Assembly (NCBI GenBank): GCA_030591195.1
Contig: JAUVBO010000066.1
Location: forward strand, 1 to 8,624
Direction of reading: 5' to 3'
Source of the DNA: Pseudomonadota bacterium
Lineage (GTDB): Bacteria; Myxococcota; Polyangia; GCA-2747355; JACKDQ01
Length of the DNA: 8,624 bases
The notes beneath the pieces were generated by a model, which searched no databases, was not told the DNA's origin, and saw only the letters and a list, made by a program, of their open reading frames with translations. Positions 1,003 through 8,491 of this stretch are shown here, piece by piece. How positions within the stretch are numbered: position 1 is the stretch's first letter; each line of letters starts with the position of its first letter. A program made the translations under genes and the position numbers.

Positions 1003-2991
1003 GTGCACGGCTCGCGCTCCACGGTTGTCGCCAGCGGGATCGCGCTGGTGGCGGTGGTGCTCGCCACGCAGCCTGCTGCCGCCGAGGGCCAGGTGGTCAG
1101 CAGCGCGAAGCTGACCGACGGCGAGCTTCGCGTGCGCGTCACGCGCGCGCGGGGGCGAGTCGACCTGACGCTCTTCTTTCGCTCGGCGCTCGACGGGACG
1201 CCAGGTCAGCACCAGCGGCCCGTCCGCGGCTGGGGCCTGCGCCTCGACGGCGATCGGGCCTACTTCGTCAAGATCGGGCGCGACGGCGCGCTTCGCCGTC
1301 ACGGCGGGATCTCCTACCTGCGCGGCGCTCGGCGCTTCCGCACGCTCGAGCTGGTGGTCTGGCTCCACGGCCGGCAGATCGTTGCCGGGATCTTCGATCG
1401 GCGCCTGCGGCGACGCTTCGCCGTGCTCGCGTTGCGTGCGGACGCGCCGGTGGAGGGCCAGCGGCTCGGGCTGATCACCGGTCGACGAGCCGGGCCGACG
1501 AGGATCGTGCGGCTGACCACCCGGCCGCTCTGCCAGCGCGACCCGGGAGCGCGCCGCCGCGCCAGAGGGAGCGCCTGGCCCCCGCGGATCTACGCCACGG
1601 TCAAGCGGTACGCCGGAGGCGCTCGTGCGGTGGTCGAGCGAACCAGGGCCGGCGCACTGGTGTTGCGTACCGACCTGACCCGGCTCGAGACCATGGTCTG
1701 TGGCGGCGCGAGGCTGCTGGCGGTCAGTCCTCACCGACCGTGGAAGTACGTCGGCGCGGGCGTCGAGTACCTTGCCCGGCGTGACAGGCCGCCGGCCACC
1801 GGCCCAGGGGGCGTGCCGATCATTGGCCGCAGCTACAAGAACCCGGCGATGGTCGAGGCCCTGCTGCGGGCCTGGCACCGTCGGTACCCGCGACGCACCC
1901 GCCTGGTGACCCTCGGTCGCTCTGATGGCGGCCGCCCGCTGCAGGCGCTGTTCATCGGCGATGGCGTGCGGGCCGCGGACCCGAGGCCGACGGTGCTGCT
2001 CAACGGCGGTCACCACGGCACCGAGCCGCTGTCGGTGGAGCTGGTGCTCGACGCGATCCAGGTCCTGCTCGGCGAGACCGCCCTGGCGCGGCGTCTGCGG
2101 CGCGAGGTGGTGGTCTGCGCCGTGCCGGTGGTCAACCCGGACGGCCTGCACCACTACCTCGAGGTCTCACTGCAAATGGGCCGCAAGAACGGCCGCGACC
2201 TCAACCGCGACGGCATCGTCGGCGTCTACGAGGGGGTCGACCTCAACCGCAACTACCCCTTCGGCTGGCGCGTGACGGTGGAGGGCCGCGGCACGCGACG
2301 CCCTGACTGGCACTACTACCGCGGTCCTGCGCCCGCCTCCGAGCCGGAGGTCAAGGCGATGATCGCCCTCGCCGAGCGCGAGCGCTTTGTCGCCTCGGTC
2401 TCCTACCACAGCGGCGCGATCGCGCTTCACCTGCCGTACACCGTCTCCGGCGCGGCGAGCCCCGTGCCCGACGAGGCCGGCGTGGTAGCCCGCGAGATCG
2501 CGCGGGGCCTCGGCACCCATCCCCAGGGCCGTCGCTTCGCGATCCGCCGGCGCATCGCCTCGGTCAGCGGCACGGACCAGGACTACTACCGGCACGCCCA
2601 CGGGACAGTCGCGCTGCTGGTCGAGGCTGCTCGCCGCACCCCGCGCCCGGGTCGCGAGCGCGACAAGGTCGTGGCGGCGCTGCGCCCCTCGTGGCGGCTG
2701 TTGCTGCAGCGCTATCTCGACGGCCCGACGATCTGGGGCCACGTGCGCGACGCTGCGGGCCGGCCGGTGGAGGCCGAGGTGCGGCTGCGGGAGGTCAAGC
2801 TGCGGGCGAAGGAGCGGTGGACCTCCCGGCCCCGCGACGGACGCTTCGACCGGATCCTCGCCCGGCCGGGCCGCTACGGGCTCCAGGTCCTCGCGGCCGG
2901 CTACCGCCCGGTGGAGCGGACGGTGGAGGTCGGTCGCCGGCAGCGCCGCCGGGTCGAGATCCGCCTGCCGTCGAGGAGGTCTAGCCGCTGA
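1003..2991 (+). CDS. secreted M14-family zinc carboxypeptidase with C-terminal regulatory-like domain
   Basis: A 662-residue exported metallopeptidase predicted to remove C-terminal residues from peptides outside the cytoplasm. GTG 1003 is chosen because it opens a signal peptide (hydrophobic core at residues 8-22, cleavage near AAA|EG at 27/28). The open frame upstream runs into the 741-797 hairpin and is not protein-like. Residues 30-160 form a beta-rich domain I cannot name; it may be lectin-like. The M14 domain spans about 277-570: zinc ligands H338-x-x-E341 and H469 (SYHS), NPDG at 378-381, RKN at 394-396, DLNRNY at 413-418 including the substrate-binding N-R pair, and catalytic Glu E541 (LLVEAA). 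All key residues are present. An EF-hand-like loop (399-410) is inserted before DLNRN. Residues 577-655 resemble the transthyretin-like carboxypeptidase regulatory domain. Its 3' end overlaps the convergent PilZ-Hsp70 gene. Confidence 0.9.
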   Translation: MHGSRSTVVASGIALVAVVLATQPAAAEGQVVSSAKLTDGELRVRVTRARGRVDLTLFFRSALDGTPGQHQRPVRGWGLRLDGDRAYFVKIGRDGALRRHGGISYLRGARRFRTLELVVWLHGRQIVAGIFDRRLRRRFAVLALRADAPVEGQRLGLITGRRAGPTRIVRLTTRPLCQRDPGARRRARGSAWPPRIYATVKRYAGGARAVVERTRAGALVLRTDLTRLETMVCGGARLLAVSPHRPWKYVGAGVEYLARRDRPPATGPGGVPIIGRSYKNPAMVEALLRAWHRRYPRRTRLVTLGRSDGGRPLQALFIGDGVRAADPRPTVLLNGGHHGTEPLSVELVLDAIQVLLGETALARRLRREVVVCAVPVVNPDGLHHYLEVSLQMGRKNGRDLNRDGIVGVYEGVDLNRNYPFGWRVTVEGRGTRRPDWHYYRGPAPASEPEVKAMIALAERERFVASVSYHSGAIALHLPYTVSGAASPVPDEAGVVAREIARGLGTHPQGRRFAIRRRIASVSGTDQDYYRHAHGTVALLVEAARRTPRPGRERDKVVAALRPSWRLLLQRYLDGPTIWGHVRDAAGRPVEAEVRLREVKLRAKERWTSRPRDGRFDRILARPGRYGLQVLAAGYRPVERTVEVGRRQRRRVEIRLPSRRSSR

Positions 2992-4945
2992 GCTCCGGGC
3001 GGCGGCCGGCGCCGAGGTGGTTGGCGTAGATCGCGTCGCCGATCACCACCGCGTGCTCCGGGTTGACCGGCAGCCCGATCTCCCGCTCGAAGTAGTCCTG
3101 CACCCGCTCGCGGACCAGCGGCATCCGGGTCACGCCGCCCGTCAGCACCACCTGGTCGATCATCGAAGCGGAGAACGAGGCCTCCCGGAGGCAACGCTCG
3201 ACCACCTCGAGCGACCGGTCGACCAGCGGGCCGCAGATCTCGTCCAGCGTGTCGCGGTCGAAGGGCATCCGGAGGTCCACCGGCCCACTGGCCGACAGCA
3301 CGATCCCGGGCGCCAGCAGCTCGACCAGGCGCGCGCTGCTCAGCCGGCGCTTGCCCTCCTCGCAGATCATCAGCAGCTGCTGCCACTCCACCTGGCGCTT
3401 GTGCAGGTCGACCTCGGTCTCGCGCCAGAAGCGGTTGGCGACGTGCTCGGCGATGGCGTTGTCGAAGTCATCGCCGCCGAGCCAGCCGTCGCCGGCGCGA
3501 GCCATGACCCGGAAGCGCCGGTCAGCGATCTCTAGCAGGGTGAAGTCGAAGGTGCCGCCGCCGAAGTCGTAGACGGCGACGATCTCGGTCTGCCGTCCCC
3601 GGCCGAAGGCCACCGCAGCGGCCACTGGCTCGTCGACGATCTTCAGCACCCGCAGGCCGGCGAGCTCGGCAGCGCGCCGGAGCGCGATCAGCTGGGGCTC
3701 GCCGAAGGTCACCGGTGCCGAGAGCACCACGTCCTGCACCCGGGCTCCGGTGGCCCGCTCGCCGATCCGGGCCAGCTCGCGAAAGACCTCGGCGCAGACC
3801 TGCGGGATCGCCACCTGCTCGCCGTGGATCTCGGCCACCACCTGCCCGTTGGGCCCGGCGCTGGTCTCCACCGCGGAGGAGCCGAGGTAGGGCGCGATCG
3901 CCCGGTCGTCGTGGTTGCGGCCGAGCAGCCGCTTGGGCGAGCTGAGAGTCGTCGTCGGGTGCATCGGCGCGGCCCCGCGGGCAGGCCAGCCCACCAGCGG
4001 GCTGTCACCCTCGCGGTAGCAGACCACCGTGGGGATCATCGTCTGATCGTGGTCGTCAGACAGCAGGCGGATGCGGTCGTCGTGCAGCAGCGCAATGCTG
4101 GTGTAGGAGGTGCCAAAGTCGATGCCGAAGAAGGCGGGGCCCTCGACCTTGCCGAGCGGCACCGCCGGGGCCTCGAGGGTGCCAATGCTGACCTCGAAGT
4201 CGCCCGAGTCCGAGGGCTGCAGCTCTGCCAGATCGCTCACTGGCGCGGGTTGCCCGCTGTCGCCGGCAGGATCGCCAGACAGATCGAGGGGCTCGCTGCC
4301 CAGATCGTCGAGCAGCTCACCACCCGGGATCTCGTCTTCGAGGGCGAGCGCCGCGGCGAGCGCGCTCGGCGGCTCACTGCCTCGCGCGCCGCTGGCCGCG
4401 ACCGGGTCGTCTGCGGCTGCTGGTGGCGGCGCCGCGTCACGCTCCGCGGCGACGGCTTGCTCCGAGGTCAGATCGCCGAGCTCGATCAGCTGGTAGGCCG
4501 CGGTGGTCTCGATCGTCTCTCGGTCCCGCTGGCGCCGGAGCACCGTCGGCATGATGATGTAGGTGTCCGACATGCTGTAGCAGTGTCGGCCGCCGGTGTG
4601 GCTCGCGGCCATGGCCTCGAGCAGACTCAGGTCGAGGGCGTGCTTGTCGTCGAAGCGCAGGCCAAAGCCGGGCTTCTTTCCCGTCTCGACGGCCTGCTCG
4701 GGCGACACGGTGTGTGCCACCTCGCCTTCGACGTTGAACTTCTCGCCGTCGGGCAGTCTGAGGGTGACCTTCAGCCGGGCACCGACCTTCACCGGATGCA
4801 TCGAGCGCACGAACAGGCCGCCGCGGCTGATGTTCTGGGTCGAGAGCTCGAGCACCCCTTCCCAGTCGCCCGCGGTGATCTCGACGTCGAACGAGACCTC
4901 GTAGCGCCGATGTTGGCGTGCCTTGTCGTCGGGTCCTTCGCTCAT
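2981..4945 (-). CDS. PilZ domain fused to an Hsp70-type ATPase domain, no substrate-binding domain
   Basis: A 654-residue cytoplasmic fusion. Residues 10-115 form a PilZ domain with both cyclic-di-GMP motifs: RxxxR at 10-14 (RQHRR) and NxSxxG at 38-43 (NISRGG). Residues 130-270 are an acidic, Ala/Pro/Ser-rich, probably disordered linker. From about residue 272 (FFGIDFGTSYTS) to the end lies an Hsp70/actin-fold nucleotide-binding domain with PKRLLGR, DEPVAAAVAFG, the phosphate loop DFGGGTFD (460-467) and LTGGVTR (601-607). The protein ends at the point where DnaK would enter its interdomain linker, so no peptide-binding domain exists. It is unlikely to be a classical chaperone; an ATP- and perhaps c-di-GMP-controlled scaffold or regulator is an inference. 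ATG 4945 is preferred over TTG 4981 because PilZ proteins usually start shortly before the RxxxR motif. The ribosome-binding site is weak. Confidence 0.92.
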   Translation of the reverse strand: MSEGPDDKARQHRRYEVSFDVEITAGDWEGVLELSTQNISRGGLFVRSMHPVKVGARLKVTLRLPDGEKFNVEGEVAHTVSPEQAVETGKKPGFGLRFDDKHALDLSLLEAMAASHTGGRHCYSMSDTYIIMPTVLRRQRDRETIETTAAYQLIELGDLTSEQAVAAERDAAPPPAAADDPVAASGARGSEPPSALAAALALEDEIPGGELLDDLGSEPLDLSGDPAGDSGQPAPVSDLAELQPSDSGDFEVSIGTLEAPAVPLGKVEGPAFFGIDFGTSYTSIALLHDDRIRLLSDDHDQTMIPTVVCYREGDSPLVGWPARGAAPMHPTTTLSSPKRLLGRNHDDRAIAPYLGSSAVETSAGPNGQVVAEIHGEQVAIPQVCAEVFRELARIGERATGARVQDVVLSAPVTFGEPQLIALRRAAELAGLRVLKIVDEPVAAAVAFGRGRQTEIVAVYDFGGGTFDFTLLEIADRRFRVMARAGDGWLGGDDFDNAIAEHVANRFWRETEVDLHKRQVEWQQLLMICEEGKRRLSSARLVELLAPGIVLSASGPVDLRMPFDRDTLDEICGPLVDRSLEVVERCLREASFSASMIDQVVLTGGVTRMPLVRERVQDYFEREIGLPVNPEHAVVIGDAIYANHLGAGRRPELSG

Positions 4946-5054
4946 CGAGCTGCCATGATTCCACAAACCGGCGGCCAACAAAAGGAGTTGCGGGATCTGC
5001 CGCGAGCCTGGGCTCAGACAGGGACGAGGGGGGCGAAGCAGCCCGTGCCGGGAG

Positions 5055-6212
5055 CTACTGCAGCAGCCCCTTGATCGCCGTCTCCAGCGTCGCGAGGTTG
5101 TTGGCGGTCTTCTGCAGCACCTGATGGATCTTGCCGTCGCGCTTGATCAGGAACGAGCAGTTGGGACAGGTGCCGTAGGTGCACCAGACCGGGTTGTCGA
5201 GCGGCTCGGGGGTCAGCGAGTCCACCAGCAGCCGCTGGTTCCCCTGCAGCAGCTGCTCCATGTCCTTGGCGTTGGCTACCCGGCCAGGGTAGGTCTTGGA
5301 GTTTGGCTTGCTGCTGTAGGCCGCCTCCCAGACCTTGCCGCTGTAGGGGCTCGGGTCGGGAGCCTTGGGGTGCGCCTCGACGGTGTAGACGTGGACGAAG
5401 TGGACCAGGTCGGCGTAGGTCCCGCCGCCGAAGGTCTTTTGCGCCAGCTGATTGAGGGCAGGCACGCTGCCCTGGTAGGGCGGTCAGGTGAACGAGCCGA
5501 GCTGCAACCACACTGGCTTGGTCCCCAGCAGGTCGGACAGGGTGTGGCTGGTGCCGGCCGTGTCCTTGAGGGTGAAGTCGATCGCGAGTTGCCCGGCCGA
5601 CACCGAGACGATCCAGCCGGTGCTGTTGCTCGGCGAGAACTCGGTGCCCGGCCAGCCGAGACAGCCCGACTTGAGCCCGCCGGCGAGCTGCGGCGGAATG
5701 CCACCACCGTCGGGCGGGACCAGGGCGCCGTCGGCCGGTCCCCCGTCCGGCACCACCACCGGCGGCGGACAGTCGACCGTCGCAGCGGCGGCGAAGTGAC
5801 AGGAGACGCAGTCGCCGGGCGGGTTCATGATCTCGTGCATCCTGTCGTGGCAGCTGCCGCAGTCGTTGTCCTTGGCGTGCTCCTGGCGGCCGCTGTTCGG
5901 CCCGTTGGGGTTGCAGGCCCCGTTGGCGCCGTGGCACCGGGCACACTGGGCCGGGTGGGTCGCGAGGTGACCCTTTTCCGGCAGGTTGTGGCAGCTGTCG
6001 CAGCGCGGATCGGACCAGCCGGCGTGGGTCTCGTCACGGACCGAGGGCGTCCCCTGGGGGCCCAGGGATCCGCCGGCGGCGTCGGGGCCAGGCGGTGGCG
6101 CGCCGTCTCCCGTGTGGGCCTGCGGTGTTTCCGTGCAACCGCCGGCGCAGATCGCCGCAGCGATCGCCGCCGTGGCGAAGGCTCGCCACATCCCACCCTG
6201 GCTGTTCTTCAT
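5055..6212 (-). CDS. deiodinase-like selenoprotein lipoprotein with four CxxCH heme motifs (UGA = Sec243)
   Basis: Read through the TGA at 5484-5486, this is one 385-residue protein. Residues 1-26 are a lipoprotein signal ending AGGC with lipid Cys26. Four CxxCH motifs (71-75, 90-94, 118-122, 135-139), with extra His at 63, 82, 86, 112 and 126, suggest a tetraheme c-type region. A Pro/Gly linker follows. From about 180 lies a thioredoxin-fold domain: LGSFT-U243-PPY matches the deiodinase active site (GS-x-T-U-PPF), VEAHP at 278-282 matches the deiodinase EEAHP, and the C-terminus carries VDSL, YGTCPNC and FLIKRDGKI. Both halves share one frame, and a SECIS-like stem follows the TGA. AGAGAGGG 6 nt before ATG 6212 fixes the start. 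Catalysis is unknown: reductive dehalogenation or thiol/peroxide redox chemistry fed by heme electrons is an inference. The alternative is a nonsense mutation. Confidence 0.85.
5455..5473 (-). promoter_or_regulatory. candidate bacterial SECIS element
   Basis: On the coding strand AGGGCAG pairs perfectly with CTGCCCT around the loop CGTGC. The stem begins 10 nt after the UGA and the loop starts at nucleotide 18. In bacterial SECIS elements the apical loop lies roughly 16-37 nt after the UGA, with a G among its first two bases; here G is second, followed by U. The E. coli fdhF element has its loop at nearly the same distance. The stem lies within the coding sequence, as expected for bacteria. 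Confidence 0.75.
5484..5486 (-). other. in-frame UGA, predicted selenocysteine codon (Sec243)
   Basis: The codon is TGA followed by C on the coding strand. It lies between LGSFT and PPYQG, exactly at the selenocysteine position of iodothyronine deiodinases. No other stop occurs in this frame between 6212 and 5058. Confidence 0.85.
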
Positions 6213-7594: not shown

Positions 7595-8491
7595 ATGATG
7601 CTCAATAGACTGTTTGTTATCGCGATCTTCGCCGGGGGAACCTGGGCCCTGGCGACCCCGTCGGCCCGGGCCGACGACAAGCTGCCCGATGGCTCGGCCG
7701 TCGCTCCCTGCGCGAAGAAGCCGCCCACCGAGAGGGGTTGCGTCCCGGGTGGGTCTTTCCTGCGGGGCGCTGACAAGGGCCCGAAGAACGCTCGCCCTCA
7801 GGCGACGATCCACCTGCAGACCTTCTACATCGACCGCTACGAGGTGACGGTGGCGGACTACGAGGCCTGCGTCAAGGCGGGCAAGTGCAAGCCGGCCCGC
7901 ACGCGGTATCGCGACTACAACCGGCCCAAGCAGCCGAAGGTCGGCGTCAGCTGGTACGACGCGGTGGCCTACTGCAAGGCGATGGGCAAGCACCTGCCAA
8001 CCGAGGCCGAGTGGGAGAAGGCCGCCCGCGGCACCGACGGGCGGCGCTACCCATGGGGCAACCAGCGCGCGACCTGCAAGCGGGCGGTGATCAAGGACCA
8101 CCGCGGCCGCTCCTGCGGGGTGAAGAAGGCCAAGGGCGGCGGTCCGGACAAGGGGCGGACCTTCGTCGTCGGCACCCGGCCGCCGACCCTCTTTGGGCTG
8201 TACGACATGGCCGGCAACTCATGGGAGTGGGTCCACGACTGGTACGCGCCGAGCTACGCTGCCTGCGGCGCGGCCTGCACCGGTGTCGATCCGCGTGGCC
8301 CGTGCGGCGGAGCCGAGCCGTGCAAGGGCCACCGCCGCAAGATCGTCCGCGGCGGCTCGTGGTACTGGCCCGCGGCCCACGCGACGACGGTCTTTCGTCG
8401 GCCCCACGTGCCCTCCAACAACCCGTACCACCACTTCGGCTTTCGCTGCGCCGCCTCGGTAGGCGAGGTCTCGGCCCTCGCCGGACGGTGA
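7595..8491 (+). CDS. exported SUMF1 (formylglycine-generating-enzyme fold) protein lacking the catalytic cysteines
   Basis: A 298-residue protein with a signal peptide (cleavage after SARA, residue 26) and one SUMF1 domain from about residue 48. Family signatures: FYIDRYEVT (77-85), GVSWYDAVAYC (117-127), LPTEAEWEKAARG (134-146), YPWGN (152-156), LYDMAGNSWEW (202-212), RGGSW (252-256) and GFRCA (282-286). In true formylglycine-generating enzyme, two Cys follow the GGS motif; here those positions are W258 and A263, so sulfatase-activating chemistry is not expected. The protein has about a dozen Cys, including a cluster at 224-243, suggesting disulfides outside the cytoplasm. The role is unknown; other SUMF1 domains serve as enzymes of different chemistry or as binding modules. 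The start could be ATG 7595 or ATG 7598. Confidence 0.92.
   Translation: MMLNRLFVIAIFAGGTWALATPSARADDKLPDGSAVAPCAKKPPTERGCVPGGSFLRGADKGPKNARPQATIHLQTFYIDRYEVTVADYEACVKAGKCKPARTRYRDYNRPKQPKVGVSWYDAVAYCKAMGKHLPTEAEWEKAARGTDGRRYPWGNQRATCKRAVIKDHRGRSCGVKKAKGGGPDKGRTFVVGTRPPTLFGLYDMAGNSWEWVHDWYAPSYAACGAACTGVDPRGPCGGAEPCKGHRRKIVRGGSWYWPAAHATTVFRRPHVPSNNPYHHFGFRCAASVGEVSALAGR

Follow-up and report, generated by a model that had tools for sequence, protein, structure and literature searches.

A predicted selenoprotein that joins a tetraheme lipoprotein module to a deiodinase-like domain

Introduction

Does the TGA codon that interrupts a gene on contig JAUVBO010000066.1 (assembly GCA_030591195.1, a Pseudomonadota bacterium placed by GTDB in the Myxococcota) end a short multiheme lipoprotein, or does it encode selenocysteine (Sec) in a longer protein that joins hemes to a deiodinase-like domain? 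A sequence-only reading of the 8,624-nucleotide stretch analyzed here (the window) had proposed a single 385-residue selenoprotein. Relatives from protein and genome databases indicate that UGA is very probably decoded as Sec, and the fusion of heme and deiodinase-like parts is a family trait rather than a single occurrence.

An in-frame TGA within a conserved gene

Encoded on the minus strand, the gene runs from ATG 6212 to the TAG at 5055-5057, and the TGA at 5484-5486 (residue 243) is its sole in-frame interruption. The coordinates first given for two same-frame open reading frames split only by this codon were correct, and the strand, absent from that account, is now supplied. The motifs that had drawn attention are likewise all present in the read-through translation: GSFT directly before the TGA and PPY directly after it, the Glu of VEAHP 36 residues past residue 243, four CxxCH motifs and a lipoprotein-type Cys. 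ATG 6212 is preceded at ~8 nt by purine-rich GAGAGG; an alternative upstream start, ATG 6239, is possible and gives a 394-residue translation with Sec as residue 252. Residue numbers refer to the ATG 6212 translation (ATG 6239 numbering minus 9) unless stated. The GC content of third codon positions (GC3) is 0.937 after the TGA and 0.897 before it, and the sequence that follows this codon can be aligned, in frame and over its length, with uninterrupted Cys homologues. As the full read-through protein also retrieved 26 relatives, the open frame is more than a chance observation.

Three protein database searches yielded 56 relatives, the window's own truncated entry not counted. Thirty-three of these break off precisely after G-[SAG]-[FY]-T, whose Thr immediately precedes the codon, a count to which the second search, seeded with truncated proteins, contributed a biased, high truncated share. 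The heme region is present in 32 of the 33, with four strict CxxCH motifs in 29 of them; P0026 and P0036 have CxxCK at one motif, and P0049 has longer spacing at one. All 33 of these stop-type relatives are entered in databases as proteins truncated partway through the catalytic domain and are mostly unnamed or “hypothetical”; one is entered as “cytochrome c3 family protein.” The other 23 relatives have Cys at the codon (20), have Ser (P0024), or consist of the heme part alone (P0055 and P0057). In the first search, for which the query was the full read-through protein, the 26 relatives comprised 6 heme-fused truncated proteins, 8 heme-fused Cys proteins and 12 proteins without hemes (11 Cys, 1 Ser), and Cys occupies the codon in 19 of the 20 that are full length.

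The codon itself was read from genomic DNA. A first genome-contig scan gave four loci: a heme fusion with Cys in a Planctomycetota metagenome-assembled genome (MAG; L001), a Cys form in a Proteobacteria MAG, and, from Anaerolineae, two MAGs that lack hemes and carry a stop precisely at the Sec column. In phylum-wide genome searches (G004 phylum, 282 and 377, overlapping; G002 phylum, 251; G001 phylum, 246 and 392, overlapping), each followed by fetching of loci for its top matches only, many matches hold exactly one internal TGA, including most of those listed in the G001 phylum. Most weak matches of the first G004-phylum search had no internal TGA, and matches in that phylum of about 1e-5 and weaker include ordinary thioredoxin-like proteins. 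After removal of duplicates and of rows short of the column, 76 DNA rows (window included) showed TGA in 56 (55 from other genomes), TGC in 13, TGT in 3, AGT in 2 and GCG and GGT in 1 each; neither TAA nor TAG was found in any of the 76 fetched rows. Both kinds of homologue sought at position 243 were therefore found, with TGA in 56 rows and Cys in 16. Unrelated residues, which the sequence-only reading had named as a sign against itself, do occur, but only as exceptions: Ser in 1 of the 56 database relatives, and Ser, Gly or Ala in 4 of the 76 DNA rows. The domain may serve otherwise in the four G002-phylum loci with these residues (L076, L077, L078 and L080).

One weak match, G282, spans the active-site region and contains a TAG; the locus proved to be a common thioredoxin-like gene that has WCGPC and is preceded by the TAG, and was rejected. 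Deiodinase-like genes without the fusion and with one internal TGA are common in the G001, G002 and G004 phyla, and single genomes hold up to four matches (four in G688, three in G815 and in G242). A pattern search hit 23 stretches of viral contigs, none of which was confirmed as a relative; plasmids gave no match.

SECIS hairpin and selenocysteine machinery

The hairpin past the UGA (Table 1) was judged by criteria for the bacterial Sec insertion sequence (bSECIS) from PMC13188914: a loop of 3-9 nt, a stem of 4-16 bp, G in the first two loop positions, a spacing of 16-37 nt and an energy of at most -7.5 kcal/mol. With the hairpin constrained, the window satisfies all of these, and 3 of 100 synonymous shuffles reach the same level. 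The criteria were passed by 32 of the 56 TGA rows, against 5.2 expected from synonymous-codon shuffles, and by 3 of the 20 non-TGA rows, against 1.9 expected (TGA versus non-TGA, Fisher P = 0.0015). Two Anaerolineae relatives keep the same loop and register with 7/7 pairs retained, 2 of them changed on both sides; the shared loop partly reflects a common Ser-Val-Pro. In ten further relatives, whose GGUC loop lies at +22, 4 of 6 pairs show double changes. A relaxed-threshold Rfam scan of the window gave 7 matches, all below gathering score (best E 0.15) and none SECIS-like.

Genes for tRNA-Sec were scored at a threshold of 55 bits, set after a gap in the scores was seen, in genomes that may be incomplete. 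They were found in 36 of 40 genomes with the TGA form and in 22 of 39 others (Fisher P = 0.0009), the latter comprising 12 of 19 genomes with Cys or some other residue at the fetched locus, and 10 of 20 without a match at the cutoffs used. An 80th genome, G821, has the heme module only, and tRNA-Sec is present. selA was over the cutoff in all four genomes of L001 to L004; the L001 genome has selA and selB and no tRNA-Sec above 55 bits.

If the TGA were a true stop, the product would be a shorter tetraheme lipoprotein and the remainder a pseudogene or separate reading frame. Gene callers do end such genes at the TGA (P0003), and stand-alone lipoprotein-like tetraheme genes exist (L053, L065, L083 and L111), but these stop right or close after the last heme motif and not in the middle of a thioredoxin fold. 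The conservation after the TGA, in frame and with the higher GC3, the identical end of 33 relatives and the SECIS covariation led us to reject the pseudogene and leave termination at this codon very improbable. A changed genetic code, with UGA read as another amino acid such as Trp, would account for the open frame and nothing further; three other genes in the window, encoding M14, M29 and FGE proteins, end in TGA, and homologues carry Cys, not Trp, at the column. It was rejected as well and is scarcely credible.

Several results speak against Sec decoding or dilute its support. In the heme-fused stop-type branch, TGA was read directly from DNA in the window only, as all heme-bearing loci among those fetched from the G001, G002 and G004 phyla are either the Cys fusion L001/L081/L107 or modules that stand alone or are fused to flavin adenine dinucleotide (FAD) oxidoreductases. 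Strict SECIS criteria fail in 24 of the 56 TGA rows, and when 50 nt of the window are folded without constraint, a different first hairpin is favored and the fold is unexceptional (z -1.18); this was dropped as weak evidence in favor of the constrained hairpin and synonymous shuffles. No clear tRNA-Sec is seen in 4 of the 40 TGA genomes (G247, G501, G597 and G691), with selB over the cutoff in G247 and G501 and not in G597 or G691, and 22 of the 39 genomes for which no TGA form is known also have tRNA-Sec. Weighed against the TGA/Cys exchange, the compensatory changes in the hairpin and the many relatives ending at the same codon, which all back the 385-residue selenoprotein first proposed, these points still leave us highly confident that UGA is read as Sec.

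Deiodinase-like domain

For the predicted fold of the C-terminal domain, mouse deiodinases 2 and 3 (Dio2 and Dio3) occupy the top two VIA rows, and a profile search of Protein Data Bank (PDB) sequences also finds both enzymes. Four relatives (P0010, P0017, P0019 and P0020) are annotated with PF00837. The Dio2 relay residues Ser 127, Thr 129, Tyr 157, Glu 160 and His 162, listed in PMC11592359, are matched by alignment with Ser240, Thr242, Tyr276, Glu279 and His281. The kinship is less clear by other measures: ResA lies within one Z unit of the deiodinases, Foldseek ranks ResA/Etrx-type thioredoxins first with no deiodinase in its best 50 rows, the PDB-sequence profile search places peroxiredoxin 5epf between Dio3 and Dio2, and the window scores below the gathering values of PF00837 (21.2 versus 27 bits) and NF038285 (62.4 versus 250 bits, C-terminal part only). 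Taken together, sequence matches and predicted fold bear out the kinship first suggested, and we have little doubt that the domain is deiodinase-like. Thyroid-type deiodination is not implied, because the loop Trp is unmatched (no Trp follows EAHP) and so is the second relay His (Dio2 182), for which the presumed Dio3 equivalent aligns with Pro in the profile and Ser in the window.

Four further Cys residues distinguish the protein. Cys184 and Cys344 are jointly present in 16 and jointly absent in 5 of 21 full-length sequences and never occur alone; since they co-occur, they probably form a structural disulfide. Cys349 and Cys352, a CPxC pair at the predicted cis-Pro loop, are shared with seven Cys fusions (P0004 to P0010) and with P0012, P0016 and P0020, and are lacking in L002, L003 and the fusion P0015; they could form a relay to Sec.

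Tetraheme module and the fusion family

The heme half scores just below the gathering value of PF14522 (Cytochrome_C7; 9e-5, 22.7 versus 24.8 bits), which the relative P0011 passes with 25.9 bits. The four heme motifs are kept by 28 aligned members, with CxxxxCH, CxxxCH and CxxCK as variants, and four further His residues are invariant, a pattern that suggests four bis-His hemes with one further His for each. A heme-free model of a stand-alone relative (predicted local distance difference test score, 64.9) was too weak for a fold search and gave no Foldseek match.

The same module is found in other settings. It makes up the stand-alone genes L053, L065, L083 and L111, and heme parts alone are also known, from protein entries only, as P0055 and P0057. 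In the G004 phylum, the module lies N-terminal to FAD amine-oxidase/desaturase-type oxidoreductases in L038, L061 and L063 (PF01593, 9e-16 to 1e-24), and L110 combines it with what was judged by eye to be the same Rossmann start; P0011 and L038 align across the tetraheme module at 9e-12. These FAD fusions are another apparently heme-wired enzyme. The best evidence that the module supplies or takes electrons is this shuffling among redox enzymes, by which it looks like an electron plug-in.

Heme and deiodinase-like halves are joined in 41 family members, 33 stop-type (window included) and 8 Cys. In a midpoint-rooted tree of these proteins, seven Cys rows form one clade within the stop-type rows, near P0003, P0011 and P0035, which are also the window's group; two state changes are needed, and the placement of P0015, on a long branch, is unsure. 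Provided that the stop-type rows are TGA, this arrangement fits Sec as the older state, lost to Cys at least once. P0015 (L001), the heme-fused Cys form from the Planctomycetota MAG, has a long extra N-terminal region.

Proposed mechanism

We consider it likely that the gene encodes one secreted lipoprotein made through UGA-Sec decoding, with a signal and lipid-bearing Cys, a tetraheme module, a linker and a deiodinase-like domain with Sec243, which would act as a heme-fed reductase. This proposal builds on the domain order, the UGA/Cys exchange, the SECIS hairpin, the fold match and the conserved heme and relay residues seen in the sequences, and it predicts export, heme loading, a direction of electron flow and a substrate. 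The lipid-anchored protein would work outside the cytoplasm, its hemes collecting electrons from the periplasmic cytochrome pool and storing them. The Sec selenolate, helped by Ser240, Thr242, Tyr276, Glu279 and His281, would attack an oxidized substrate, for which a peroxide, a halogenated compound or an oxidized selenium or sulfur compound are candidates. Two electrons drawn from the tetraheme module would then reduce the resulting Se-X or selenenylsulfide again, possibly via Cys349/Cys352 beside the cis-Pro loop. Wiring of the Sec center to hemes gains support from the fusion of the same module to FAD oxidoreductases, and arguments for and against a heme-to-Sec flow seem to us evenly balanced. 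The wider proposal, that a tetraheme plug-in directly re-reduces a two-electron selenium center outside the cytoplasm in place of thiol cofactors and also serves FAD oxidoreductases, is tentative and falls a little short of that balance.

Electrons might instead flow in reverse: the Sec/Cys domain would oxidize thiols, selenols or sulfide species and hand the electrons over to the hemes, making the protein a thiol oxidase of the periplasm that supplies an electron-transfer chain. Multiheme proteins can transfer electrons both ways, ResA and DsbE-type oxidoreductases come first in Foldseek and ResA scores close to the deiodinases, and the window shares its CPxC pair with the seven related Cys fusions. 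Yet reductive deiodinases take both of the top VIA rows, the relay Ser, Thr, Tyr, Glu and His are retained, and a selenol would be costly for a plain thiol oxidase, so that we regard this direction as unlikely. Similarly improbable, in our judgment, is a heme module that serves as a lipid-anchored docking or partner-binding unit while separate thioredoxin-like proteins re-reduce Sec. Similar Sec and Cys domains do occur without a heme part (L002, L003, P0012 to P0014 and P0016 to P0020), and the 394-residue model gives low confidence to the low-complexity linker between the halves (its residues 163-171). Retention of the fusion across 41 divergent members argues against mere docking, and the same module on FAD oxidoreductases fits electron transfer better. 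The heme-fed reductase remains our preferred reading.

Feature coordinates and neighboring genes

Table 1. Features of the predicted selenoprotein gene (window positions)
Feature	Position	Strand	Basis or remark
Whole selenoprotein gene	5055..6212	-	ATG 6212 to TAG 5055-5057; 385 residues, Sec at 243
Lipoprotein-type signal, residues 1-26 with Cys26	6135..6212	-	Cys invariant in 7 truncated heme-fused proteins; lipidation predicted
Tetraheme module	5796..6026	-	Four CxxCH and four further conserved His
CxxCH motifs	5988-6002, 5931-5945, 5847-5861, 5796-5810	-	Read-through translation
Deiodinase-like thioredoxin-fold domain	5058..5606	-	Predicted fold and sequence
In-frame TGA taken as selenocysteine, residue 243	5484..5486	-	TGA/Cys exchange among relatives, SECIS
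Putative bSECIS hairpin AGGGCAG[CGUGC]CUGCCCU	5455..5473	-	11-29 nt past UGA; loop from nt 18; -10.8 kcal/mol
VEAHP, equivalent of deiodinase proton-relay Glu/His	5367..5381	-	Alignment with Dio2 and Dio3
WCTYGTCPNC around expected cis-Pro loop	5157..5186	-	Holds Cys344, Cys349, Cys352

The gene is flanked by an M29 aminopeptidase gene (6284 to about 7561, minus) and, in the window domain scan, a gene for a PilZ-HSP70 protein (2981-4951, minus; scanned as 2984-4951). The latter gene comes directly after the selenoprotein gene and fuses a PilZ domain with an ATPase domain of the HSP70/DnaK-like type. Farther out are an FGE-domain protein (7595-8491, plus) and an M14 carboxypeptidase (end at 2991, plus). 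No selenium genes are among these four neighbors in the window, and a tRNA scan of the window found no tRNA.

Relation to known proteins and significance

Bacterial deiodinase-like selenoproteins are already known. They were reported from Sargasso Sea sequences in 2005, with only a general redox role suggested (PMC1088965), and those of the PF00837 type share the Sec/Cys site, the thioredoxin-type fold and a bacterial SECIS after the UGA (PMC1088965, PMC9312934 and PMC13188914, as far as their accessible text goes). The window adds the tetraheme lipoprotein module and Cys184/344/349/352, no heme being mentioned for them in that text. NCBIfam NF038285 (“deiodinase family protein”) matches the window over the C-terminal 140-odd profile positions (5e-17); its over-cutoff member P0028 (399.7 bits) has preceding EF-hand domains, whereas the window has hemes and lies far below the cutoff. 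Unlike the vertebrate deiodinases (Dio2, 9h48; Dio3, 4tr3), the predicted protein lacks the SDGW loop and second relay His and would be a secreted lipoprotein with hemes and a bacterial SECIS. Compared with ResA/TlpA/CcmG thiol-disulfide oxidoreductases, it has UxxY for CxxC as well as the deiodinase relay residues, and its likeness to cytochrome c7/c3-type proteins lies in the four CxxCH motifs and further conserved His, below the PF14522 gathering score.

A multiheme selenoprotein has been listed as well. ExtKL (NF040886), a multiheme cytochrome with Sec by its table name in PMC13188914, is likened here by description only; in the accessible part of that paper it is not named deiodinase-like and stands in a separate row from the deiodinase-like selenoproteins. 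Similarly, the accessible text of PMC9312934 names a multiheme selenoprotein “cytochrome c family protein,” apart from the deiodinase-like entry, and that of a 2008 survey of selenoprotein fusions (PMC2398784) gives Prx-PP2C and SelD fusions and the deiodinase-like protein without a fusion. The sequence-only reading had held the fusion of a lipoprotein signal and four CxxCH motifs to be an undescribed deiodinase architecture; consistent with this, we recognized no description of a tetraheme/deiodinase-like fusion among the papers listed in searches of open-licence literature, a coverage that mostly excludes subscription papers.

Fusion to an electron carrier offers a testable clue to the electron source of bacterial deiodinase-like selenoproteins. 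To our knowledge, heme-driven turnover of a selenium center would be a rare case, if the wiring is true. A selenoenzyme would then be powered in a manner so far undescribed, and the protein might be a respiratory reductase whose substrates are halogenated or peroxidic compounds.
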